Position numbers and translations under genes: made by a program. The notes below the pieces were generated by a model. That model saw only the letters and a program-made list of their open reading frames with translations, was not told where the DNA came from and searched no databases. A stretch of 64,000 nt of DNA, from contig QOCQ01000013.1 in the NCBI GenBank assembly GCA_003574685.1, forward strand, positions 1 through 64,000, given 5' to 3'. The DNA comes from Rhodospirillaceae bacterium SYSU D60007. Lineage in GTDB: Bacteria > Pseudomonadota > Alphaproteobacteria > Reyranellales > Reyranellaceae. Shown here piece by piece: positions 11,667-42,257 of this stretch (position 1 is its first letter; every line of letters starts with the position of its first letter).

Positions 11667-14078
11667 ATGAAATACGATTCTCCCAAAACGTTGCGGCTGC
11701 CCATCGTCGGCATGACCTGTGCCGGCTGCGTGCGCCGCGTCGAGACAGCGCTGCAAGCTGTCCACGGTGTTGACGACGCAAGCGTCAACCTTGCCTCCGA
11801 ATCAGCCACCGTCTCGGCGTCGCAAGGCGTCGATGCCGGCGCCCTCGCCCGGGCGATCGAAGCCGCCGGCTACAAGGTCGGCACCTCCACGGTCGACCTC
11901 GCCGTCGAGGGCATGACCTGCGCCTCCTGCGTCGGACGCGTGGAGCGGGCGCTGATGCAGGTGCCCGGCGTCACCGCAGCCAGCGTCAATCTCGCTTCCG
12001 AACGGGCCCGCGTCAGCTTCGCCGGTTCGCTCGACGACGTCCTTCCGACCCTGCTGCACGCTGTCGAACAGGCCGGCTATCGCGCGCGTGCGCTCGACCG
12101 TCCCGGCGGCAGCGGCGACGAAGAGGCAGTCCGTGCCGCTGCCCTGCGACGCGAACGGCTGGCCGTTTCCCTAGCCATCCTGCTGACACTTCCGCTGGTC
12201 GTGCCGATGTTGCTGGAGCCGCTGGGCATGCATGTCATGCTGCCCGGCTGGCTGCAGCTCCTGCTGGCCACGCCGGTGCAGTTCGTCCTGGGCTGGCGCT
12301 TCTATGTCGGGGCATACAAGGCCTTGCGCGCGCGCACCGGCAACATGGACCTGCTGGTGGCGCTGGGCACCTCGGCGGGCTGGGGTCTCTCCACCTGGCT
12401 GCTGCTCACCGCGCCGGCCGGCACCGCACCGCATCTCTATTACGAAGCATCCGCAGTGGTGATCGCGCTGGTGCTGCTGGGCAAGTACTTCGAGGCCCGC
12501 GCCAAGCGTCAGACATCGGCCGCGATCCGGGCCCTGATGGCGCTGCGTCCCGAGACGGCACGGCTCGAGCGGGACGGCACCGAGGTCGAGGTGCCGGCTG
12601 ACACGGTGCGCTCCGGCGACATGGTGGTCGTGCGCCCGGGCGAGCGTATCCCGGTCGATGGCGTGATCGTCGCCGGAGACACCCACGCCGACGAATCGCT
12701 GATCACCGGCGAGAGCGCCCCCGTGCCCCGGCACCCGGGCGACAAGGTGACCGGCGGCGCCATCAACGCCGAAGGCCTGATCCGGGTGCGCGCCACGGCC
12801 GTGGGCGCCGAGTCGACGCTGGCCCACATCGTGCGGCTGGTGGAGAGCGCCCAGGCCGCCAAGGCGCCGATCCAGCGCCTGGTGGACCGGGTGAGCGCCG
12901 TGTTCGTTCCCGTCATTCTGGGCATCGCGCTCGCGACCTTTGCCGGCTGGTGGCTGGCCGCGGGCGATCCGGAACGCGCCATCATCAACGCCGTCGCGGT
13001 GCTGGTGATCGCCTGCCCGTGCGCGCTGGGCCTGGCGACGCCGACGGCGATCATGGCCGGCACCGGCGTGGCCGCACGCCATGGCATCCTGATCAAGGAC
13101 GCCGAGGCGCTGGAGCGCGCGCACCGCATCGACGTGGTGGCGTTTGACAAGACCGGCACGTTGACCGAGGGCAAGCCGTCGGTCGTGGCGTTCGAACCCG
13201 CCGGCATCGACCGCAGCGAAGCGCTGCGCCTGGCCGCCGCGCTGCAGGCCGGCAGCGAGCATCCGCTGGCGCGTGCCGTCATCGCTGCCGCTTCGGCTGA
13301 GGGACTCGCGCTGCCGGCCGCCAGCGAGGTGCGTGCCCTGCCCGGCCGCGGCATCGCCGGGCGCGTCGAGAATCGCGAGCTGCGGCTGGGCAGCGAGCGG
13401 CTGATGCAGGAGATGGGGATAGACCTCGCGCGCCTTCGCGAGCCCGCCACGAGGCTTCGCGAGCAAGGCCGTACGGTGTCCTGGCTGGCCGACGCCGCCA
13501 CGAAGCAGGTCCTGGCGCTGATCGCCTTCGGCGATGCGCTGAAGCCCGCCGCGCTCGCAGCCATCGCCCGGCTGCATGCGCTGGGCATCCGCACCGTCAT
13601 GCTGACCGGCGACAATGCCGGCAGCGCCGGCGTGGCCGCGGGCAAGCTGGGTATCGACGAGGTGGTGGCCGACATACTGCCGCAGGACAAGGCCGCGGCG
13701 CTGGCGCGGCTGAGGTCGGGCGGCAAGATCGTGGCCATGGTGGGCGACGGCATCAACGACGCGCCGGCGCTGGCTGCCGCGGATGTCGGCATCGCGCTGT
13801 CGAGCGGCACGGATGTCGCCATGCACGCCGCCGGCATCACGCTGATGCGCGGCGATCCGGCGCTGGCGGCCGATGCGATTGGCATCGCGCGCCGTACGCA
13901 TGCCAAGATCTGGCAGAACCTGTTCTGGGCCTTCATCTACAACCTGCTGGGCGTGCCGCTGGCAGCATTCGGCCTGCTAAGCCCCGTGATCGCCGGCGCG
14001 GCGATGGCGGCCAGCAGCGTCAGCGTCGTCTCGAATGCCCTGCTGCTGCGCCGCTGGCGCCCGGGATCACAGCCATGA
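11667..14078 (+). CDS. copA: Copper-exporting P1B-type ATPase
   Basis: This 803-residue inner-membrane pump uses ATP to expel Cu(I). Two N-terminal heavy-metal domains carry GMTCAGC and GMTCASC. The membrane metal site is the CPC motif (Cys450-Pro-Cys452). The phosphorylated aspartate is Asp494 in DKTGTLTEG, and the hinge is [18 protein letters not shown]. Eight membrane helices are expected from the hydrophobic pattern. The gene lies directly behind a CueR operator and overlaps cueR by 4 bases, so copper should induce both. The promoter predicts transcription starting at or within a base or two of the ATG, leaving no room for a ribosome-binding site. Confidence 0.96.
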
Positions 14079-27774: not shown

Positions 27775-28031
27775 CAGCCGAGGTCGGCCGGCTTGAAGAT
27801 ACCTCCTCCAAGGCGGGGCGGCTTGAAGTCGAAATCAGCATCGCCTGCCTGGGCGAGCGCCTCGGCAAGACTCATAGTGCTGCCGGTCAGGCGCTGATAA
27901 TCCCTGATCGTCAGCAGGACATGCGCAGGCCGGCCGCGATCCGTGATGAAGACCGGACCGCGTTGCGCCGCCTTCTTGGCACGGCTGGTATCCTGATTGA
28001 ACTCCCGGCTTGTCAGAGTGGTTGTCGTCAT
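27774..28031 (-). CDS. vapB: VapB/Phd-YefM family antitoxin, orphaned
   Basis: This 85-residue antitoxin has the Phd/YefM DNA-binding N-terminus (SREFNQDTSRAKKAA) and PVFITDRGRPAHVLLTIRDY, summarised by VFITDRGRPAHVLL, the hallmark strand. The C-terminal toxin-binding tail is proline- and glycine-rich. GGAGG precedes the ATG. The gene still has a full promoter with an operator-like dyad, but its toxin partner is reduced to a 29-codon relic. It may now act only as a repressor or counter a related toxin elsewhere. Confidence 0.85.
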   Translation of the reverse strand: MTTTTLTSREFNQDTSRAKKAAQRGPVFITDRGRPAHVLLTIRDYQRLTGSTMSLAEALAQAGDADFDFKPPRLGGGIFKPADLG

Positions 28032-28049
28032 TTCAGCCTCCGCAGCAAT

Positions 28050-28217: not shown

Positions 28218-28892
28218 TCACTGGTACGCGACCCGCCTCATCAACTCGCGCGTTACCGCGATCCGGTAGACGTGCTCGGGAAACCGTTTGTCATCTGCCA
28301 ACAGGGCAGATATCGCCTGATCGTTTCCGATCTTGAGCACGGCCTCCATCTCGCCTGCCGCTTGTCGATCGAAAGGAACGAACACGCCGCACGTGATGAC
28401 GAAGCCCTCGACAGGGGCGACCCTTGCTGCAAGAAATTCGCCATGCCGCAGAGTTTGTTCCAGGCCTTCGTCCAGCAGCCAGACCTCACCACCGCGCAGC
28501 AGGTCCTTGAGAAGCACGCCGACAATCTCGTTTTTTTCAATGACACGGAACACGGAAAAGCGCGCGGCGCACAAGGCTTGCAGCACGAGTGCTTCATCGG
28601 GATCACCATTCTTCGGCCGGGTACGGGCACAGCGGTCGATGGCACGCGTCGTTCCCGCTCCGACGCTATAGAGAGCAAGATCATAGGCAAGGGACAGCTC
28701 GGCCTCGCTGTTGGCGATGACGGTGTTGCCGTCTGCCAAGCCGATTCGTTTGGCACCCCTCAGAAAGGCTGCGTGCGACATGTTCTTCAGCGCCGCGGTC
28801 TGGATCTCGGTGCGCAATTCTCGCCAGCGCCGGTACCTGCGAAGAACGTCGTCCCGGTTGAGGGATTGCATGCCGCTGGCCTCCATTACCAC
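28218..28892 (-). CDS. Uncharacterised protein, paralogue 1
   Basis: I do not recognise this 224-residue family. Features shared with the copy at 39330 are RRYRRWRELRT near residue 18, KRIGLADGNTVIANSEAEL-type central strand (key part IADGNTxIANSE), YDLALYSxGAGxTRAIDRxAR, ARFSxFRVIEK, LWLLDEGxEQT, and VITCGxxVPFD. No membrane segment or signal peptide is present, so it is probably cytoplasmic. The two copies are about 60% identical by eye. Here it lies between the antitoxin and a divergent FAD oxidoreductase. Confidence 0.75.
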   Translation of the reverse strand: MVMEASGMQSLNRDDVLRRYRRWRELRTEIQTAALKNMSHAAFLRGAKRIGLADGNTVIANSEAELSLAYDLALYSVGAGTTRAIDRCARTRPKNGDPDEALVLQALCAARFSVFRVIEKNEIVGVLLKDLLRGGEVWLLDEGLEQTLRHGEFLAARVAPVEGFVITCGVFVPFDRQAAGEMEAVLKIGNDQAISALLADDKRFPEHVYRIAVTRELMRRVAYQ

Positions 28893-30945: not shown

Positions 30946-31854
30946 TCATCTGTGCGTCGTCTTCAACGCCGGCAGCACGTGCCGCGCGATGCGCTCGAAC
31001 ATCGGCACCTGTTCATCCAGCATCGGGTAGTAGAGGGCTATCTCCGGGATGCCGAGCGCAATCACCTGCTCGACCATCTGCGCGAACATCTCCTCGGACT
31101 CGTAGTATCTGATCCTGCCCCCGCTGGAACGGGAGGTCGGATCGAACATGAGATAGGAGCGGCGCAGGCTGGCCGGGTCGCGACCGATGGCGGCACATCG
31201 TGCGTCGATAGCTGCGATGCGACGCCGCGTCTCGTCGATCTGGGCCTCGAAGGTTTTGGCGAAGCTGATGCTGTTCCAGATGTCGGCATGACGCGCGGCG
31301 TGACCCAGCATGACGGGCCCCATCGCCGCGATCATGATAGGTGGGCGCGGCAACTGGACAGGACGCGGACGAAGGGCGGCTCCATCCACCTGATAGAAGC
31401 GGCCCTGAAGCGACGTCTCCTCGTGCGACAACAGCCGGTGGACAATCTCGACATACTCGCCGAAACGCGCGACGCGTTCTTTCGCACTCCAGTTCGGAAT
31501 GCCCATCATGCGATATGACGGGTCGATCTCCAGCCCGATGCCAAGCCCCACATCGAGCCGGCCGCCGGAAATGTGATCCGCCGTAAGGGCCTGCAATGCC
31601 AGGAGGGCGGGGTTGCGCAACGGAATCTGCGCGACCAGGGTTGTCAGACGAATGCGCGTTGTGGCCTGGGCGATGGCGGCAAGCTGTGACCACAGCTCGA
31701 ACCAGGGTCCCTTGCCACCAGCCCAATCGACCAGATGGTCGGCGAGACCGATGGAGTCGAAACCAAGTGCCTCGACCTGCCGGCAGCGACGGAGAAACTC
31801 GGGCCACGGCACGTTCGGCAGCACGAGCACGGAGAACCGGAATTGGTTGGGCAC
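30946..31854 (-). CDS. Luciferase-like (LLM class) flavin-dependent oxidoreductase
   Basis: This 302-residue TIM-barrel oxidoreductase uses FMN or F420. LGFDSIGLADHLVDW, IRLTTLVAQIPLRNPALLA and HISGGRLDVGLGIG are the usual strand motifs (for example SGGRLDVGLG). The track of similarity begins at a GTG preceded by a strong GGAGGGG, so that is the start; a longer frame upstream overlaps the cyclase gene and is not credible. It is 65 bases downstream of the cyclase on the same strand and might be co-transcribed with it. The substrate is unknown. Confidence 0.87.
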   Translation of the reverse strand: MPNQFRFSVLVLPNVPWPEFLRRCRQVEALGFDSIGLADHLVDWAGGKGPWFELWSQLAAIAQATTRIRLTTLVAQIPLRNPALLALQALTADHISGGRLDVGLGIGLEIDPSYRMMGIPNWSAKERVARFGEYVEIVHRLLSHEETSLQGRFYQVDGAALRPRPVQLPRPPIMIAAMGPVMLGHAARHADIWNSISFAKTFEAQIDETRRRIAAIDARCAAIGRDPASLRRSYLMFDPTSRSSGGRIRYYESEEMFAQMVEQVIALGIPEIALYYPMLDEQVPMFERIARHVLPALKTTHR

Positions 31855-31919: not shown

Positions 31920-33143
31920 CTATTGCGGAAGCAGCTCGGATTTCAGCGCCACCACGTTGGAGACCGCGAGCGGACGGCTGAGGCCCTTGATCGCCAGCAT
32001 CCCGATCTCGGTGAGCTCGACGAAATCGCCAACCGCCGTGGCGACCCGCGATGTCACCAGGATCTGGCGGTCCGATGCAACGTCGCTGAGGCGAGCGGCT
32101 GTGTTCACGACAGTGCCGATCGCACTGTAGTCGAAACGCCCTTCGAAGCCGATCTGGCCCATTGTGGCAAAGCCCTGCGCGATGCCTATGCCGAAACCGA
32201 TCTGGTGGCCGCGCTTGCGCCACAGCACTGCCAGCGCCGCCACAGCATCCCGCATGGCCACAGCCAGCCTGACGGCACGCTCGGCCGGGTTAAGACACGG
32301 CAGCGGATCGTTGAAGATCACCATCATCCCGTCGCCGACGAAGCGATCGAGCGTGCCTTCGAACGACTGGATGAGCGGCACGAGCGCTGCGTGGTAGTCG
32401 CGCAACAGTTCGACGACCTCTTCAGGCTCCGCATTCTCGGCAAAGGCGGTGAAGCCGCGTACGTCGCAGAAAAGCGCGGCGATGTCCCGACGATGGCTCT
32501 GGAGGATGCTTTCGTCGCCCGTCGACACGATCAGCTCCGCGAGCGACGGCGCGAGGAACCGCTTCAACCGGTTTATGCGCTCAATTTCGCTGACCTGCGC
32601 CGCCACACGCTCCTCGAGGGTCTTGTTCCACCGCGCCAGCTCGGCCGACTGCGCTTCCAGCGCCGTGTGCGCACGCAGCAGGGCGTCGCGCGAGGCTTCG
32701 AGCTCGCGCTGGGCCGCGAGCAGCGCCGCGTTGGCGGCCTCCAGGCGCCGATTGAGCATCGCCTCGCGTTCCTGCAGCAGCGTCATGTCATAGGCCTTCT
32801 GCTGCATGCGCCGTGCCGCATCGCGCTCGGACGTCACCTCCAGCAGTACTACCCAGACGCCGCCCTCGTCCCGCCAGAAATGAAGATCGGCAGCGCGGCC
32901 CCTGGCAATCTCAACGGAGGGGAGCAGGTACGGTGTCTCGATAAGCGGCAGAAATCCCTCCAGGAACACCGCCTGCTCGACGGCAGGCGCGCCGAGGCGC
33001 AGCGCGGCCAGGCCATACGCCTCCAGTTGCCCGCCGGCATCGATGAGCACCAGGGCATCGTCCACATAAAGAAAGGCGACCGCGCGGCCTGCCAGGGTCA
33101 GCGCCTGCAGCCGATCCATGACTTGCGCTGGCAATTTTTCCAT
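31920..33143 (-). CDS. Class III adenylate/guanylate cyclase with PAS-like and coiled-coil regions
   Basis: This 407-residue protein has an N-terminal PAS-like fold (about residues 10-115), a long heptad-rich coiled coil (115-190), and a class III cyclase domain from about 215. Metal ligands lie in CDVRGFTAF and FVGDGMM, and the transition-state Asn/Arg in VVNTAARL. The usual substrate-specifying Lys is Arg (LDRFVGD) and the second specificity site is Ser (DYSAIG), so ATP or GTP preference is uncertain. It lies 3 bases after the Ras-like GTPase gene. It has no membrane segment, and the coiled coil may couple to partner proteins of the operon. The product would be cAMP or cGMP. Confidence 0.9.
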   Translation of the reverse strand: MEKLPAQVMDRLQALTLAGRAVAFLYVDDALVLIDAGGQLEAYGLAALRLGAPAVEQAVFLEGFLPLIETPYLLPSVEIARGRAADLHFWRDEGGVWVVLLEVTSERDAARRMQQKAYDMTLLQEREAMLNRRLEAANAALLAAQRELEASRDALLRAHTALEAQSAELARWNKTLEERVAAQVSEIERINRLKRFLAPSLAELIVSTGDESILQSHRRDIAALFCDVRGFTAFAENAEPEEVVELLRDYHAALVPLIQSFEGTLDRFVGDGMMVIFNDPLPCLNPAERAVRLAVAMRDAVAALAVLWRKRGHQIGFGIGIAQGFATMGQIGFEGRFDYSAIGTVVNTAARLSDVASDRQILVTSRVATAVGDFVELTEIGMLAIKGLSRPLAVSNVVALKSELLPQ

Positions 33144-33146
33144 TGT

Positions 33147-33650
33147 TCAGGGCGCGACGCGGGCCGCAAGGTCCGTGAAGGCATCCTCGACGCCTTCGCC
33201 GGTGCGCGCGCTGCTGGGCCGCACCGACCAACCGCCGCGGCGCAGCTCCTCTAGGTCACCGTTCGAGACCGTCCACTGCTCGCTGAGATCGTGCTTGTTT
33301 ACCAGCAGCGTATAGGGCAGCGGACCGCACTCTGCCTCGACGCGCTGGTGCAGCGACAGCGCCATGTCAAGCGTCGCCCGCCGTGTTCCGTCGGCGACCA
33401 GCATGTAACCGGCCGAGCCACGCAAATAGCTCATCCGAAGCGAGGCCATGTCGTCCTCGCCGGCGAGATCCCAGAGAATCAGATGCACGGTCCGGTCGCC
33501 CATCGTCACTGTCTTCTTGTCGATCTTGACGCCGACCGTCGTCAGATAGGTCTCGGAGAAGATGCTCTGGACATAGCGCTTGACCAGGCTCGTCTTGCCC
33601 ACCGAGAAGCCGCCAAGCATGCAAATCTTCTTCTGGACCGTCGCCGTCAT
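33147..33650 (-). CDS. Ras/Rab-like small GTPase
   Basis: This 167-residue prokaryotic Ras-superfamily GTPase has all guanine-nucleotide motifs: G1 GGFSVGKT (residues 13-20), a switch I with Thr37/Thr38 in TYLTTVGV, G3 WDLAGEDD (Asp61, Gly64), G4 NKHD (118-121) and G5 SSART. Eukaryotic Rabs have WDTAGQE at G3; here Glu-Asp replaces Gln-Glu, so intrinsic hydrolysis may differ. There is no C-terminal cysteine for lipidation, so membrane recruitment would depend on partners. It overlaps the OmpA-domain gene by 4 bases and precedes the cyclase by 3, which argues for one signalling unit. Confidence 0.92.
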   Translation of the reverse strand: MTATVQKKICMLGGFSVGKTSLVKRYVQSIFSETYLTTVGVKIDKKTVTMGDRTVHLILWDLAGEDDMASLRMSYLRGSAGYMLVADGTRRATLDMALSLHQRVEAECGPLPYTLLVNKHDLSEQWTVSNGDLEELRRGGWSVRPSSARTGEGVEDAFTDLAARVAP

Positions 33651-35623
33651 GGCTCCTCCTCGAAGCGGACCGTGGCCGAGACGCGGCGGTTCAGCGAGCG
33701 GGCGCTGTCGGATTGGCCGAGGTTGGCCGGATCAAGCTGGCCGGCGCCGCCGATCGTGACCAGATCGTCAGCAACGCCGCGCTTCTTCAGGAGCGCGAGC
33801 ACGGCACCCGCCCGCGCGATGCTGAGCGACAGGTTGTATGTGCCGGGGCCGGTGTCGTCGGAGTGGCCGGTGAGCCTGATGCGTGCCTTCATGCGCAGCG
33901 TGAAGGCCAGCGCCGTCAGTTCCTTGATCTCGTTCGCCAGCTCGTCGAGCACAGCCTCCTGCCCGGGCGCCGGCAGCGACTCGTTGGTATTGAAGCGGAT
34001 CTCGCGGACCTCGATGGCGCGGCGCAGGTTGCCAAGGACAGATTCGGCGACGTTCTGGACTTGCGAGAAGTCGAACTGCGGACCGCCCGCCGGCAGCAGG
34101 CGGGCCGCCGTGCGCGCGCGCGACAGCCAGACGGGCGTTGCCGACCCCGCCGCCAGAATGCGATCGCCCGCGATCCACAGCGTCACGCTGGGCGGTGGTG
34201 CGAGCGAAACCTGGAGGCGCTTCAGCACGAAGACGGTATCGAGCGCCTGGTAAGGCTGCCAGCGACTGACAACGTCCGCCGGATCAATGCCGGACTTGAC
34301 CAGGATCGCCACAGGGTCGGCGGCAAGCGGATCGCGCAGGCCCGCGACCACGAACTTGCCGTCACGCTCGGCCGCCTCGGTAACGACGATGCCCGGCTCG
34401 CCGCGCAGTCGTTCGATGTAGTCCGACCAGCGCCGCAGTTCAGCCGCACGGCGTTCGGCCTTGGCGGCGCGCAGACGCTCCTGCTCGGCAGCGATTCTGG
34501 CCTGCTCCTGCGCCATCTCGGCGGCGATCCTCGCCTGCTCCTGCGCAATCCTTTGCGCGACCTGCCACCGCCACAGCCCCACGCCTCCGGCAATGGCCAC
34601 GAGCAGGAACGCGAGCGCAAAGACGTACCACGGAAAGCCGCGTCGGGGCGTGCGCCTGCCCTGTTGCCGCAACGCCGCGCATCCGGCCAGATGTGCCTCG
34701 ACATCGGGGAGGCCAGAGCTGTCGCCGTCGAACATTTCGAGCGTCTGGCGGCGCTCCTCATGAATGCGGGCAAGAACGTCGCGCAACTTGCCGCGAAGCT
34801 CCTCCGGCGGATTGCCGCGGATGACCGCGACCAGCATCGCGAGCGGCCCCGCCTCGCACCACAGGCGCAGGTCGCCGAGCCGCAGGGTGTCGACCGCCTG
34901 CTGTTCGGCGCCCTTGAACGAATCGCGGACGAAATCCTGGATCGCCGTCAGCATCGAGGAAACAAGCTGCGGATCCTGGCTTGCCGCATCCTCGGCCGCG
35001 ACATGCGAGATCAGGAGACCCGTGTGGCTGTGGATCAGGAAAACGTGTTCAACCTGATAGACAAGGGTGTGATTGAGCACGACCTCGGCGAAGGGCTTGC
35101 CGGTCCGCCAGGCTTCAAATCGCCAGCGCAGCCCGCGCCAGCTAAGGCTTTGCCGCAGTGATTCGTTCAGGGACTGAAAGGTGTTGTCGATCGTCTCTCC
35201 GACCGCCTTGCGGATCGCAGGGACGATCACCGGGTGAAGGATGCCGATCAGCGCGCGCGGATCGTTGCGAATCGAGCTCGCTGCCGCCTTCTCCAGCGCT
35301 GGCGCCAGGACCTGGCCCAGCCGCGAATCGCTTGATGCGACCGCGGTCGGCAACACGCGACCCACAGCCACGCCAAGCTGCTCGGGATCCTCGATGACCT
35401 CGCGCAGCCGGCCGAGCACCTCGATTTCGTGCCCGACCAGCACGCGGCGCAGCTCGTCGAGCCGCGGATCGATGGTCGAGAAGCCGCTGGGCGGCGCGAA
35501 GCTCGGCTCGACGGTTCGCGCCAGCTCGACGAGCAGACCCGCCAGCACCTTGCGGTCCACCCCGCCATCGTCCGGGGGCGGACGGACCAGCCACTCGAGG
35601 GTCTCGGCGGCGGAGGTGCTCAT
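33647..35623 (-). CDS. Membrane protein with cytoplasmic N-domain and C-terminal OmpA domain
   Basis: This protein has 658 residues. An N-terminal soluble, mostly helical region of about 330 residues is followed by one membrane helix (YVFALAFLLVAIAGGVGLW), then a Gln/Glu/Arg-rich coiled coil, a BON-like strand region (VTLWIAGDRILAAGSA), and a C-terminal OmpA peptidoglycan-binding domain with GHSDDTGPGTYNLSLSIARA and SLNRRV. The N-domain is probably cytoplasmic and the OmpA domain periplasmic. The protein could link the cell wall to the GTPase and cyclase encoded downstream. I chose the ATG at 35623, 10 bases after the preceding gene; a GTG at 35671 would overlap that gene. Confidence 0.82.
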   Translation of the reverse strand: MSTSAAETLEWLVRPPPDDGGVDRKVLAGLLVELARTVEPSFAPPSGFSTIDPRLDELRRVLVGHEIEVLGRLREVIEDPEQLGVAVGRVLPTAVASSDSRLGQVLAPALEKAAASSIRNDPRALIGILHPVIVPAIRKAVGETIDNTFQSLNESLRQSLSWRGLRWRFEAWRTGKPFAEVVLNHTLVYQVEHVFLIHSHTGLLISHVAAEDAASQDPQLVSSMLTAIQDFVRDSFKGAEQQAVDTLRLGDLRLWCEAGPLAMLVAVIRGNPPEELRGKLRDVLARIHEERRQTLEMFDGDSSGLPDVEAHLAGCAALRQQGRRTPRRGFPWYVFALAFLLVAIAGGVGLWRWQVAQRIAQEQARIAAEMAQEQARIAAEQERLRAAKAERRAAELRRWSDYIERLRGEPGIVVTEAAERDGKFVVAGLRDPLAADPVAILVKSGIDPADVVSRWQPYQALDTVFVLKRLQVSLAPPPSVTLWIAGDRILAAGSATPVWLSRARTAARLLPAGGPQFDFSQVQNVAESVLGNLRRAIEVREIRFNTNESLPAPGQEAVLDELANEIKELTALAFTLRMKARIRLTGHSDDTGPGTYNLSLSIARAGAVLALLKKRGVADDLVTIGGAGQLDPANLGQSDSARSLNRRVSATVRFEEEP

Positions 35624-35633
35624 CTCGCGAAGG

Positions 35634-36272
35634 CTAGCTGGCTGGCCAGCCGCGCGAAGAGTCGCCTGCACCCTTGCCTATTTTTGTCCCGTTGTCCTGA
35701 TTCAGGCACTTGGCCACTTCGACGAAGAGGCCGGCCAGCAAATTCCGATCAGTTTTGACGTTCGTGAGTTCCGCGAACATCTTCTCGATCGTGTGATGGA
35801 GGTCCTCGTTTCGTCGCTTGATCTCGTCATGCAGCGATTGCACCTCGCGCGACAGACGGTCGGCAAAGTCCCGCTCGAGCTGGCTCACCTGATCCGACAT
35901 CGTTCGCAGGCGCTTTTCCAGCAACTGGTTCTGCTCGCGCAGAGAGCGCTCGATTTCCTTGTCGGCATCGGCGCGCAGGTCCTTTTCCTCGCGAAGCTGG
36001 CTTGCGAGCGAGTCCACCTGCTTCTTCGAATTTGTGTCCTGGGCACTCAGCGTGCGCGCTGTTTCGGACTCGATTTCCTTGAAGCGCTGCAGAAACCGTT
36101 CCTCCAGCTTGGAGAAACGGCGGTCATAGTCCTGCATCTGGTTGCCAAACAGCAAGTCGCGGATCTTGTCCACGCCCACCACTTCAGGGCCGGCGGTTTG
36201 ACCGTTGCCGGCCGGCGCGATGATCTTCGCGGTGTCGGATGACACCACTTCCGGTTTCTGCTTTTCAGCCAT
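35634..36272 (-). CDS. Coiled-coil protein, first gene of the GTPase operon
   Basis: This 212-residue protein is soluble, with a disordered start (residues 1-35), then GVDKIRDLLFGNQMQDYDRRF, of which IRDLLFGNQM is the most distinctive part, followed by about 130 residues of charged coiled coil and a short globular-looking C-terminus. GGAGG precedes the ATG. The gene is 10 bases upstream of the OmpA-domain gene, so it is probably an adaptor or scaffold of the same system. I do not assign a family. An extended upstream frame to 36491 has no support. Confidence 0.8.
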   Translation of the reverse strand: MAEKQKPEVVSSDTAKIIAPAGNGQTAGPEVVGVDKIRDLLFGNQMQDYDRRFSKLEERFLQRFKEIESETARTLSAQDTNSKKQVDSLASQLREEKDLRADADKEIERSLREQNQLLEKRLRTMSDQVSQLERDFADRLSREVQSLHDEIKRRNEDLHHTIEKMFAELTNVKTDRNLLAGLFVEVAKCLNQDNGTKIGKGAGDSSRGWPAS

Positions 36273-39178: not shown

Positions 39179-39333
39179 GCCGACAATGGCCGCGGTCTTC
39201 GCCGACCCAGCCAGGCCAGGGCCACGCTCCCGACACCAAGCGCGGCGGCGCCCTGCAGCAGCTCCCAGTGCGAGGAGCCGATGTGCCCACTGCCGGGCAG
39301 GCTGACGGTTGAAACCTGCACCGCGTCGCTCAC
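39175..39333 (-). CDS. Small membrane-protein ORF (52 residues), PEP-CTERM-like tail
   Basis: This GTG-started frame is coupled at both ends: it overlaps the upstream paralogue's stop (GTGA) and the downstream enolase start (ATGA). The product begins polar, then has SSHWELLQGAAALGVGSVAL and WLGRRRPRPLSA, that is, one hydrophobic helix followed by a basic tail, as in C-terminal sorting signals or small membrane proteins. No family is recognised. Chance is possible, but overlaps on both sides favour a real gene. Confidence 0.45.
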   Translation of the reverse strand: MSDAVQVSTVSLPGSGHIGSSHWELLQGAAALGVGSVALAWLGRRRPRPLSA

Positions 39334-40013
39334 TGATACGTGACCCGGCTCATCAGATTCCGCTTTACTGCCATCCTGTAGACGTGCTCGGCAAAACGCC
39401 AGTTATCCGCCAGCGCGGCATATGTCGCCGGATCTCCTTCGATCGCAAGAAAGATCTCAACGTCCGCAGCCATTTGCTGATCGAAAGGAACGACCGCGCC
39501 GCACGTAATGACGTATCGCTCGACAGTGGCAACCCTCGTTGCAAGAAACTCGCCAGGCTTGAAGGTTTGTTCCACGCCTTCGTCCAGCAGCCAGAGCTCG
39601 CGACCGCGCATCAGGTCCTTGAGAGGCATGCCGGCAAGCTCGGGCTTTTCGATGACGCGGAACCAGGAAAAGCGCGCCGTACGCAGGGCTTCCAGGATGA
39701 GTGTCTCGTCGGGGTCGCTGGTCTGGGGCCGGCTCCGGGCATAGCGGTCGATGGCGCGGGTCTTGCCCGCCCCGGTGCTATAGAGGGCGAGGTCATAGGC
39801 AAGCATCATTTCCGATTCGCTGTTGGCGATGAGCGTGTTGCCGTCGGCGATCCCGATTCGCTTCGCACCCTTCAGAAAGACGGAGAGTGCGATATTCTTC
39901 AGCGCTGCGGACTGAATGTCGGTGCGCAACTGCCGCCAGCGCCGGTACCTGCGAAGGATTTTTTCCCGACTGACGGACGGGCTCGTCTCGGCAGTGTCCA
40001 TTCCTGCTCTCAC
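39330..40013 (-). CDS. Uncharacterised protein, paralogue 2
   Basis: This 227-residue homologue of the protein at 28218 shares the RRYRRWRQLRT segment, KRIGIADGNTLIANSESE, YDLALYSTGAGKTRAIDRYAR, ARFSWFRVIEK, LWLLDEGVEQT and VITCGAVVPFD, and the same C-terminal VTYQ ending. It has no signal peptide or membrane segment. Neighbours differ (an HTH regulator upstream, a small ORF and an enolase-superfamily gene downstream), so context gives no common function. The family is unknown to me. Confidence 0.75.
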   Translation of the reverse strand: MRAGMDTAETSPSVSREKILRRYRRWRQLRTDIQSAALKNIALSVFLKGAKRIGIADGNTLIANSESEMMLAYDLALYSTGAGKTRAIDRYARSRPQTSDPDETLILEALRTARFSWFRVIEKPELAGMPLKDLMRGRELWLLDEGVEQTFKPGEFLATRVATVERYVITCGAVVPFDQQMAADVEIFLAIEGDPATYAALADNWRFAEHVYRMAVKRNLMSRVTYQ

Positions 40014-40052: not shown

Positions 40053-40352
40053 TCATGGCATTACCCGGCGAGCGCCCCGCCTCACGGCGTCGGGCTCATG
40101 TTCGACGATCTTCAGCAGCACGCGAGCGGAGCGGTCTGGTGTCCGCCGTCCGGTTTCCCACTCCTTCACCGCATCCGGCGAGAAGCCGAAGCGGTTGGAA
40201 AACTCGATGCGGGTGAGCCCGAGCCGCTTGCGAATGAGGCGAACATTGACCTCGTCCGGCAAATGCACCACGAATCCCTTCTCGATTTCGCCGCGCGCGA
40301 AAGCCCGCGCCTTTCGGACGCTTGAGAGAATCCGCCTACCGGCCCTTGACAT
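40053..40352 (-). CDS. HTH antitoxin-like regulator (NadS/HigA type), toxin not seen
   Basis: This 99-residue protein has a C-terminal Cro/CI-type helix-turn-helix: VRLIRKRLGLTRIEFSNRFG, then SPDAVKEWETGRRTPDRSAR and LLKIVEHEPDAV, the last being characteristic of NadS-like antitoxins that pair with a RelE/HigB toxin encoded directly upstream. The 163 bases upstream on this strand hold no toxin-like frame. It may regulate only itself, or may be the remaining half of a lost toxin-antitoxin pair. Confidence 0.75.
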   Translation of the reverse strand: MSRAGRRILSSVRKARAFARGEIEKGFVVHLPDEVNVRLIRKRLGLTRIEFSNRFGFSPDAVKEWETGRRTPDRSARVLLKIVEHEPDAVRRGARRVMP

Positions 40353-40949: not shown

Positions 40950-42257
40950 TTACAGGGGCACCGGCTCCTCAATCAGAAGCAAGCGTCGGAGCCGCGCCAG
41001 CATGTCGAAACTGTTCGACACGTCGATACTCGCTGTCTCCAGAATCGCGGCATTTCCAGTTATCTGGTGCCGGGCGTGAACATCTTCGCCTGCTCCTAGG
41101 CCTGGATGATATGGATAGAGTAGCGTCAGGCGCGGTGTGCGATATAGCTGCGCGTAGGCCATCATTTGATACACATCGGCTTGCGAGACACCTTGCTTGG
41201 GATCGTCGATCCTCGACGAAATCCGTTTCCATTTGGTATCGATCACGTGCGTTACCACGCCTGCGCGGCGGATCAGGATGTCCGGCTTCGTCTGGAACAG
41301 GCCGCGACCACCGTCCTGCGCGGACAGGCAGAACAGCCGGCCGCCTTGCAGCGAGACTGTGAGGCCGGTTCCCGCCAGCGCACGCGCGATCAGACGCCCG
41401 ACATATTCTTCGAACAGGGCGTTCATCTCGAAAAGCATGGCGGTTCCTTGACCGGAGCCACCCGTTGTCGTCTGGTAACGGTCCTGCAGAAAGAGGCGGG
41501 CCATGGTAAACAGCTCCTGCCAGGGCTGATTGGTGCGATCAATCACGACCTCGTGCCATCGCAGAGCCGACACCGGCACATCCGCGATCTCCGCGTAGAC
41601 AAAGGCGAGTTCACGCAACCGCTGCTGGTTTGCAGAACGACGCGAGAGGCGCAACACATGGGAAATCGCCGCCTTCATGATCCGGTTGAGCGCAATATCC
41701 TCGGACAGCAGATCAAACCGGCAGGCTAGGCGGGATGGATTGACCGCGTGGTGGGTGAACTGCCGGCTTATGTCGAGCTTGCCACGCAACGTCGGTATGT
41801 CCTCATCCTGACCGACATAGCGGCGTGGCATCCCCTTGCGCAGAGCCGAGGTCAGCTTGTCGCAGAAGACACGGATCAGGATTTCCAGCAGCGTTTCGCG
41901 TTGCCAAGCGAGATCGGTAATGGTCCCAAGATCAATCCTGAGGTCGAGCGCAACGCCCAGCATATGAACCAGGCGCTTGCGAATCGCTGCATTCTGATGA
42001 TCGACCGTTTCACCCGGCGTCACGTCGATCTTGGGCAGAATTTCCAAGCTCGACTCGTTGGTCGCCAGAATTCCGACCACGCCGCGGGCGCGCAAGGCGT
42101 GTCGGCCGTGCTCAAGCACGCCGCTTCCACCCCGACCAGCAAAGACCGAGTGGGCAGCCAAGCTCGCGAGCCTGTCGGCATGGCGGGGCGGGATCTGTCC
42201 CTCGCCATGGCCATAGGCAAGTTTGTCCCATTCACGAACTGTGTAGGACGGCATCAA
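40950..42257 (-). CDS. mcrC: McrC-like nuclease subunit of a type IV restriction system
   Basis: This 435-residue protein is the DNA-cleaving partner of McrB. The N-terminal half contains YTVREWDKL, VGILATNESSLEILPKID and GMPRRYVGQDEDIPTLRGKLD (key part RRYVxxxExxxxLRGKLD), hallmarks of the McrC family. The C-terminal PD-(D/E)xK nuclease has TKPDIL near residue 325 and VIDTKWK near 341. It overlaps mcrB by 4 bases. With McrB it would cut modified foreign DNA, for example methylcytosine-containing phage DNA. Confidence 0.92.
   Translation of the reverse strand: MMPSYTVREWDKLAYGHGEGQIPPRHADRLASLAAHSVFAGRGGSGVLEHGRHALRARGVVGILATNESSLEILPKIDVTPGETVDHQNAAIRKRLVHMLGVALDLRIDLGTITDLAWQRETLLEILIRVFCDKLTSALRKGMPRRYVGQDEDIPTLRGKLDISRQFTHHAVNPSRLACRFDLLSEDIALNRIMKAAISHVLRLSRRSANQQRLRELAFVYAEIADVPVSALRWHEVVIDRTNQPWQELFTMARLFLQDRYQTTTGGSGQGTAMLFEMNALFEEYVGRLIARALAGTGLTVSLQGGRLFCLSAQDGGRGLFQTKPDILIRRAGVVTHVIDTKWKRISSRIDDPKQGVSQADVYQMMAYAQLYRTPRLTLLYPYHPGLGAGEDVHARHQITGNAAILETASIDVSNSFDMLARLRRLLLIEEPVPL

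Follow-up and report, generated by a model that had tools for sequence, protein, structure and literature searches.

The four genes on the minus strand between positions 36272 and 31920 of the window, by which we mean the whole stretch of 64,000 nucleotides analysed here, form a Group 1 Rup system with a class III cyclase as output. Group 1 Rup GTPases have been defined computationally as GTPases lacking the Gln of the G3 motif (Wuichet and Søgaard-Andersen 2014, PMC4316618). According to the main text of that paper they have three kinds of neighbour. One is a coiled-coil protein, another contains an unnamed domain that is often joined to a membrane helix and an OmpA domain, and the third is an output protein whose N-terminal region has a Gln that is invariant; "typically" this output is of the diguanylate cyclase/phosphodiesterase or the histidine kinase type. 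The window operon has the four components, the G3 motif without Gln and the N-terminal Gln of the output, i.e. all the Group 1 Rup features given there except for the kind of output, which is a class III cyclase and not one of the enzymes named in the main text. As the authors wrote "typically", we regard the operon as a variant of the system and not as a non-member. The preliminary description of this DNA had taken the gene set to be undescribed, which is wrong, since the set is contained in the 2014 paper with the missing Gln included. Three points go beyond the main text of that paper, namely that the OmpA partner is predicted to contain a longin/Roadblock domain, that class III cyclases are often found as outputs, and that catalytic domains have most likely been exchanged while the receiver was retained. 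A literature search yielded no experimental work on Rup systems and no description of a longin domain combined with the OmpA protein.

As a working model, which we consider probable, we propose that the state of the cell envelope is read by the OmpA/longin protein, which sets the GTPase, and that the GTPase acts on the PAS–coiled-coil receiver of the cyclase. All four genes are on the minus strand and start with ATG. Gene 1 (36272–35634) codes for a cytoplasmic coiled-coil protein of 212 amino acids, gene 2 (35623–33647) for a single-pass membrane protein with an OmpA domain (658 amino acids), gene 3 (33650–33147) for the Ras-like Group 1 Rup GTPase (167 amino acids), and gene 4 (33143–31920) for the output protein of 407 amino acids, consisting of a PAS receiver, a coiled coil and a class III cyclase. 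The ORF coordinates confirm the tight packing noted in the preliminary description, with gaps of 10, −4 and 3 bases from gene 1 to gene 4.

The window was assigned to the class Alphaproteobacteria indirectly, as genomes of its class have outputs that are almost the same as those in named Mesorhizobium records. A close orthologue of the GTPase is present in 4 of the 75 genomes of the family to which the window belongs. Two of these loci (L029 and L030) contain the four genes in identical order, and a partial locus (L044) contains the last three, i.e. the OmpA, GTPase and cyclase genes. The DNA on either side of the set is not the same in L029 and L030, which suggests that the gene set is patchy in its distribution and travels or persists as one block. 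In L029 a transposase-like gene, judged by eye, lies directly 3′ of the cyclase gene (12437–13543, minus strand), in agreement with a patchy distribution. With a profile of the GTPase more distant loci were found in the class, each beside a neighbour of the OmpA type, and in many of them a PAS-like histidine kinase takes the last position in place of the cyclase. A profile of the cytoplasmic region of the OmpA protein matched 50 of 398 Pseudomonadota genomes; this search for the longin domain was bimodal, giving either E values below 1e-46, as for all 50 matches, or no match.

For the co-occurrence we used 79 loci that were seeded by the GTPase alone in a contig scan; L111 is a duplicate of L042. 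The OmpA/longin protein is found in 59 of the 66 loci with more than 3 kb upstream, and an output with the same receiver in 64 of the 73 loci with room downstream. Among the 60 independent loci with both flanks, 47 have an OmpA-type protein as well as an output and 2 have neither. The four-gene set thus occurs together far beyond chance. Among the carriers are Pseudomonadota, Cyanobacteriota, Chloroflexota, Bacteroidota, Calditrichota, KSB1, Campylobacterota, Spirochaetota and Acidobacteriota. The preliminary description had named homologues that rarely neighbour one another as evidence against its proposal; on the contrary, co-occurrence is strong across at least nine phyla and supports its claim of a four-gene signalling operon that links a GTPase to a cyclase. 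The gene order is not the same everywhere, and four loci of Chloroflexota (L120, L133, L138 and L174) have the order GTPase, coiled coil, longin protein, output.

This conservation across phyla bears on the explanation that unrelated genes have been clustered loosely or by chance, or that the operon is a defence system similar to Pycsar or Zorya. PADLOC models of cyclases match the catalytic domain and ZorB models match the OmpA domain. Cross-matches of this kind are general for class III cyclases and for OmpA domains, however, and the operon encodes neither an effector nor a MotA-type channel nor a partner in defence. We have therefore rejected the PADLOC assignment as a defence system, and with the co-occurrence refuting it we regard the whole explanation by chance or defence as extremely improbable.

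Near the operon a component of an McrBC restriction system (40950–42257, minus strand), an MqsA/HTH-like antitoxin (40053–40352, minus strand) and a Phd/YefM antitoxin (27777–28037, minus strand) are encoded, and these genes may mark a genomic island. The operon is flanked by genes for two paralogous proteins of ∼225 amino acids (28218–28892 and 39330–40013, both on the minus strand), which are about 11 kb apart, are 67% identical over 216 aligned residues and gave no match in a Pfam search. A luciferase-like monooxygenase gene follows the cyclase gene on the same strand (30949–31824, minus); it does not adjoin the operon in L029 or L030.

The GTPase matches the Pfam family Ras (7.5e-29). Being shorter than 240 amino acids and having Ras-like G1–G5 motifs, it belongs to the Ras superfamily by the criterion used for Group 1 Rup. 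The P-loop, the WDLAG of G3, the NKxD of G4 and the SA of G5 are all there, and a search for a lipidation motif in gene 3 found none, so that the motif check agrees with the earlier view of a GTPase with all G motifs and no lipid anchor. The G3 motif WDLAGEDD (33450..33473, minus strand) had been said to lack the usual Gln, and indeed the site of Gln61 is occupied by Glu; the Asp (Asp61) is kept, unlike in MglA. Gene 3 as a member of the MglA family was ruled out by this Asp and by the operon having no separate MglB. Among the GTPases of 122 loci the G3 Asp is nearly always kept, and Gln does not rank with the eight most frequent residues at the Gln61 site. The nearest solved relatives of gene 3 by sequence in the PDB are structures of Rab23. 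In the trees of the 2014 paper, Group 1 Rup is the bacterial family nearest to the Rab, Ras and Rho GTPases (PMC4316618).

When the 2014 paper appeared, no regulator was known for the Rup GTPases, and our candidate for it is the cytoplasmic domain of gene 2. The gene 2 protein comprises an N-terminal helical region, a longin/Roadblock-like domain (residues 188–318, 34670..35062, minus strand), a transmembrane segment (residues 331–353, 34565..34633, minus strand) and then the periplasmic part with the OmpA-type peptidoglycan-binding domain (residues 564–646, 33686..33934, minus strand). The OmpA domain and membrane helix proposed earlier were recovered, the former by a Pfam match (PF00691, 1.3e-9) and by the Asp/Arg signature GHSDDTG..SIARA, the latter by hydropathy as the one hydrophobic segment of the protein. 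The cytoplasmic part is without a Pfam model, and in HMM and single-sequence searches (Pfam, PDB sequences) neither Roadblock nor longin was matched. The domain was delimited by an AF2 model, Foldseek, VIA-align and profile–profile comparison. In the AF2 model residues 188–318 mostly have a pLDDT of about 65–90 per block of 10 residues; the N-terminal ∼185 residues are of low confidence and the model is unreliable there. The order of the elements (strands 190–198 and 204–209, helix 218–235, strands 246–249, 252–258 and 262–269, helix 274–290) is beta-beta-alpha-beta-beta-beta-alpha, the topology of the Roadblock/longin superfamily. The best matches by Foldseek are MglB, the Asgard protein Roadblock3, Mon1–Ccz1 and the longin domain of Sec22b. 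VIA-align gave Z scores of 14.0 for Fuzzy, 13.7 for the longin domain of VAMP7, 13.6 for Sec22b, 12.0 for Roadblock3 and 11.7 for MglB, where gaps in Z of less than 1 count as ties. Profile–profile alignment with hhalign against Roadblock aligned the same core (P 4.5e-4, probability 33%; control pairs P 0.1–0.5), which is suggestive only. Thus, a longin/Roadblock fold of the predicted domain is well supported, and homology to longin/Roadblock proteins is moderately supported.

This fold is that of regulators of small GTPases, which counts for the regulator role in our model; it fits an exchange factor, an activator of hydrolysis or a mere scaffold alike. Longin/Roadblock proteins include scaffolds, and Ragulator and adaptor longins recruit partners; PAS domains often bind ligands. 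One could therefore imagine that the OmpA protein is an anchor only, whose longin/Roadblock domain recruits GTPase and output to the envelope with the nucleotide state left unregulated, while the PAS domain reads the signal. Some members from Bacteroidota and Calditrichota (L159, L163, L177 and L182) would fit such a scaffold, being short longin-domain proteins of 270–310 amino acids with no clear membrane helix; these short forms suggest soluble versions of the system. Against a role as anchor only, the nucleotide-binding motifs of the GTPase are complete in all ∼122 loci, and the periplasmic part of the relatives of gene 2 varies among envelope-binding domains (OmpA in 20 of 42, BON in 11, SH3 in 4), as would be expected for an envelope input. 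On balance we regard a pure anchor as rather unlikely and favour the OmpA/longin protein as a putative regulator that senses the envelope.

The coiled-coil protein of gene 1 gave nothing above the cut-off in a Pfam search. It has orthologues in L029 and L030 as well as distant relatives, with conserved motifs at the N-terminus (IRDLLFG) and the C-terminus (DRxxLAxL), and a coiled-coil gene is present in 97 of 122 loci. The motif DRxxLAxLLxELA is common to residues 174–187 of gene 1 (35712–35753) and residues 22–35 of gene 2 (35519–35560). Judging from this likeness, which has a profile–profile P of 4e-4, the motif may be a common docking site of both proteins.

The N-terminal domain of the output protein, PAS-like according to the preliminary description, has a PAS fold in the AF2 model, and a long coiled coil comes after it. 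The PAS-fold receiver (residues 20–103, 32835..33086, minus strand) has a pLDDT of 94.6 and a VIA Z of 11.4 to the PAS domain of ThkA, and this N-terminal domain is common to 71 aligned Rup outputs. In the alignment of the Rup outputs the invariant Gln is Q115 of the window protein (32799..32801, minus strand), where the coiled coil begins behind the PAS domain. The 32 cyclases compared all have it, and so do 103 of 113 outputs of every kind, which extends the invariant-Gln rule of the 2014 paper to class III cyclase outputs. The catalytic domain follows at 31983..32489 on the minus strand (Pfam Guanylate_cyc, 1.6e-18). Both metal-binding Asp residues and the Asn and Arg of the transition state are kept (FCDVRGFT, RFVGDG, VVNTAAR). 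In class III cyclases Lys with Asp or Thr at the specificity sites stands for ATP, and Glu with Cys for GTP. The window protein has Arg and Ser at these sites, the residues of all four orthologues, which bears out the earlier remark on altered specificity residues; in most of the other outputs these positions hold Lys together with Asp or Thr. Since Arg/Ser corresponds to neither the ATP nor the GTP pattern, we leave the classification of gene 4 at class III cyclase. The genome of 5.3 Mb contains 29 matches to class III cyclases and 7 to cNMP-binding domains, which makes signalling by cyclic nucleotides plausible in this organism.

Across the loci the output may be a histidine kinase, a GGDEF or GGDEF/EAL protein, a sigma-54 activator with Fis HTH, a SpoIIE, HD or OmpR-type DNA-binding protein, or a class III cyclase. 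The sigma-54 activators of L139 and L140 (KSB1 and Calditrichota) are GTPase-linked transcription factors, a kind of output which the main text of the 2014 paper does not name. As these unrelated outputs share only the PAS receiver and the Gln, it is presumably on the receiver that the GTPase acts. The cyclase had at an early stage been read as an oddity local to four genomes, as no distant relatives of it had been found and the distant loci had kinases. This reading was ruled out by ∼37 cyclase outputs in the wider set of sampled loci, from Mesorhizobium, several other Pseudomonadota, Cyanobacteria and Chloroflexota; the sample is non-random and includes near-copies, so that the output counts are no frequencies. 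The class III cyclase is a common Rup output.

The variable part of the system bears on the opposite order of events, in which the cyclase side, or a ligand of the PAS domain, would control the GTPase by using Q115 to activate hydrolysis, and the end point would be the GTPase or the complex of OmpA protein and coiled coil, for example in organizing the cell envelope. The invariant Gln in the receiver region together with a G3 motif lacking Gln is in accordance with this order, and in the 2014 paper the GTPase of the actinobacterial conservons is proposed to be the output itself (PMC4316618). Nevertheless, what differs from locus to locus is an enzyme with the activities of the end of a pathway (sigma-54 activator, GGDEF/EAL, cyclase, kinase), as expected of an output, and we consider the reversed order to be unlikely. 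Hence we retain the direction from the OmpA/longin protein via the GTPase to the output.

In the tree of the cytoplasmic region of the OmpA protein, the window operon (with L029 and L030) is sister to Mesorhizobium operons (support 100/99), and the next sister is an operon from Bacteroidota with a histidine kinase (97/89). The outputs of the window and of Mesorhizobium have 46–47% identity in the PAS receiver and 26–27% in the catalytic domain, whereas within the family of the window the receiver is less conserved (64–76%) than the catalytic domain (82%). In the cyclase tree the catalytic domain of the window groups with CyaB of P. aeruginosa (93/93) and that of Mesorhizobium with cyanobacterial outputs (100/98). 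Forcing both catalytic domains into one clade was rejected (p-AU 1e-5), and with it a single origin of the cyclase outputs of window and Mesorhizobium. The long branches flagged by the program are a caution on this tree and make the full count of origins uncertain. From these sequence comparisons it is most likely that the catalytic domain was replaced on a retained receiver. Sister operons with a kept receiver and catalytic domains of different clades suggest that the outputs are exchanged as cassettes.

For the Rup cyclase model we infer which partners interact, which way the signal runs, what triggers it and what is produced, as follows. The OmpA domain would anchor the gene 2 protein on peptidoglycan, and the state of the envelope would be passed through the single membrane helix to the cytoplasmic longin/Roadblock-like domain. 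Together with the coiled-coil partner this domain would form a platform that acts on the Rab-like GTPase as an exchange factor or as an activator of hydrolysis and so changes its nucleotide state. In one of its nucleotide states the GTPase would dock on the PAS receiver and the adjoining coiled coil of the output, alter the register of the cyclase dimer and so switch the synthesis of the cyclic nucleotide. As the GTPase has no Gln of its own, Q115 at the junction of PAS domain and coiled coil may complete hydrolysis in trans and end the signal. More tentatively, and with some doubt, the peptidoglycan-anchored longin regulator could act directly on the nucleotide of the Rab-like GTPase, the outputs plugging in via a shared GTPase-binding PAS receiver, so that the system would be a one-to-one counterpart of eukaryotic longin–Rab regulation and produce a cyclic nucleotide of unusual specificity. 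In any case, the predicted longin/Roadblock domain and the shared receiver turn a named gene cluster into a testable pathway, in which one can ask what domain controls the nucleotide state and to what domain the active GTPase binds. The version with a cyclase offers a simple read-out (cAMP/cGMP), and catalytic domains that change while the receiver stays constant hint at a natural module for placing outputs under the control of a GTPase.

The operon resembles MglA/MglB and the conservons (CvnA–D) in that a small Ras-like GTPase is combined with a partner of Roadblock fold, and the conservons also have a signalling enzyme. Nevertheless, MglA has Thr at the site of the G3 Asp, and in contrast to both systems the Roadblock/longin-like domain of the window is part of a peptidoglycan-anchored membrane protein with no stand-alone MglB. 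The catalytic domain resembles the CyaB-type adenylate cyclases (P. aeruginosa CyaB, 3r5g) in its grouping and in the kept metal and transition-state residues; in contrast, CyaB has Lys and Thr at the specificity sites, and the window protein has a Rup-type PAS receiver. To the eukaryotic longin regulators of Rab proteins (Mon1–Ccz1, Fuzzy–Inturned with Rab23, TRAPP) there is a match in fold with Z of 11–14, but the subunit make-up is different and the analogy extends no further than fold and pairing. Fuzzy, which has the highest Z to the gene 2 domain, belongs to a complex that according to the structure titles was solved with Rab23. The matches of the GTPase to Rab23 and of the gene 2 domain to Fuzzy are thus a parallel worth testing, not a proof.
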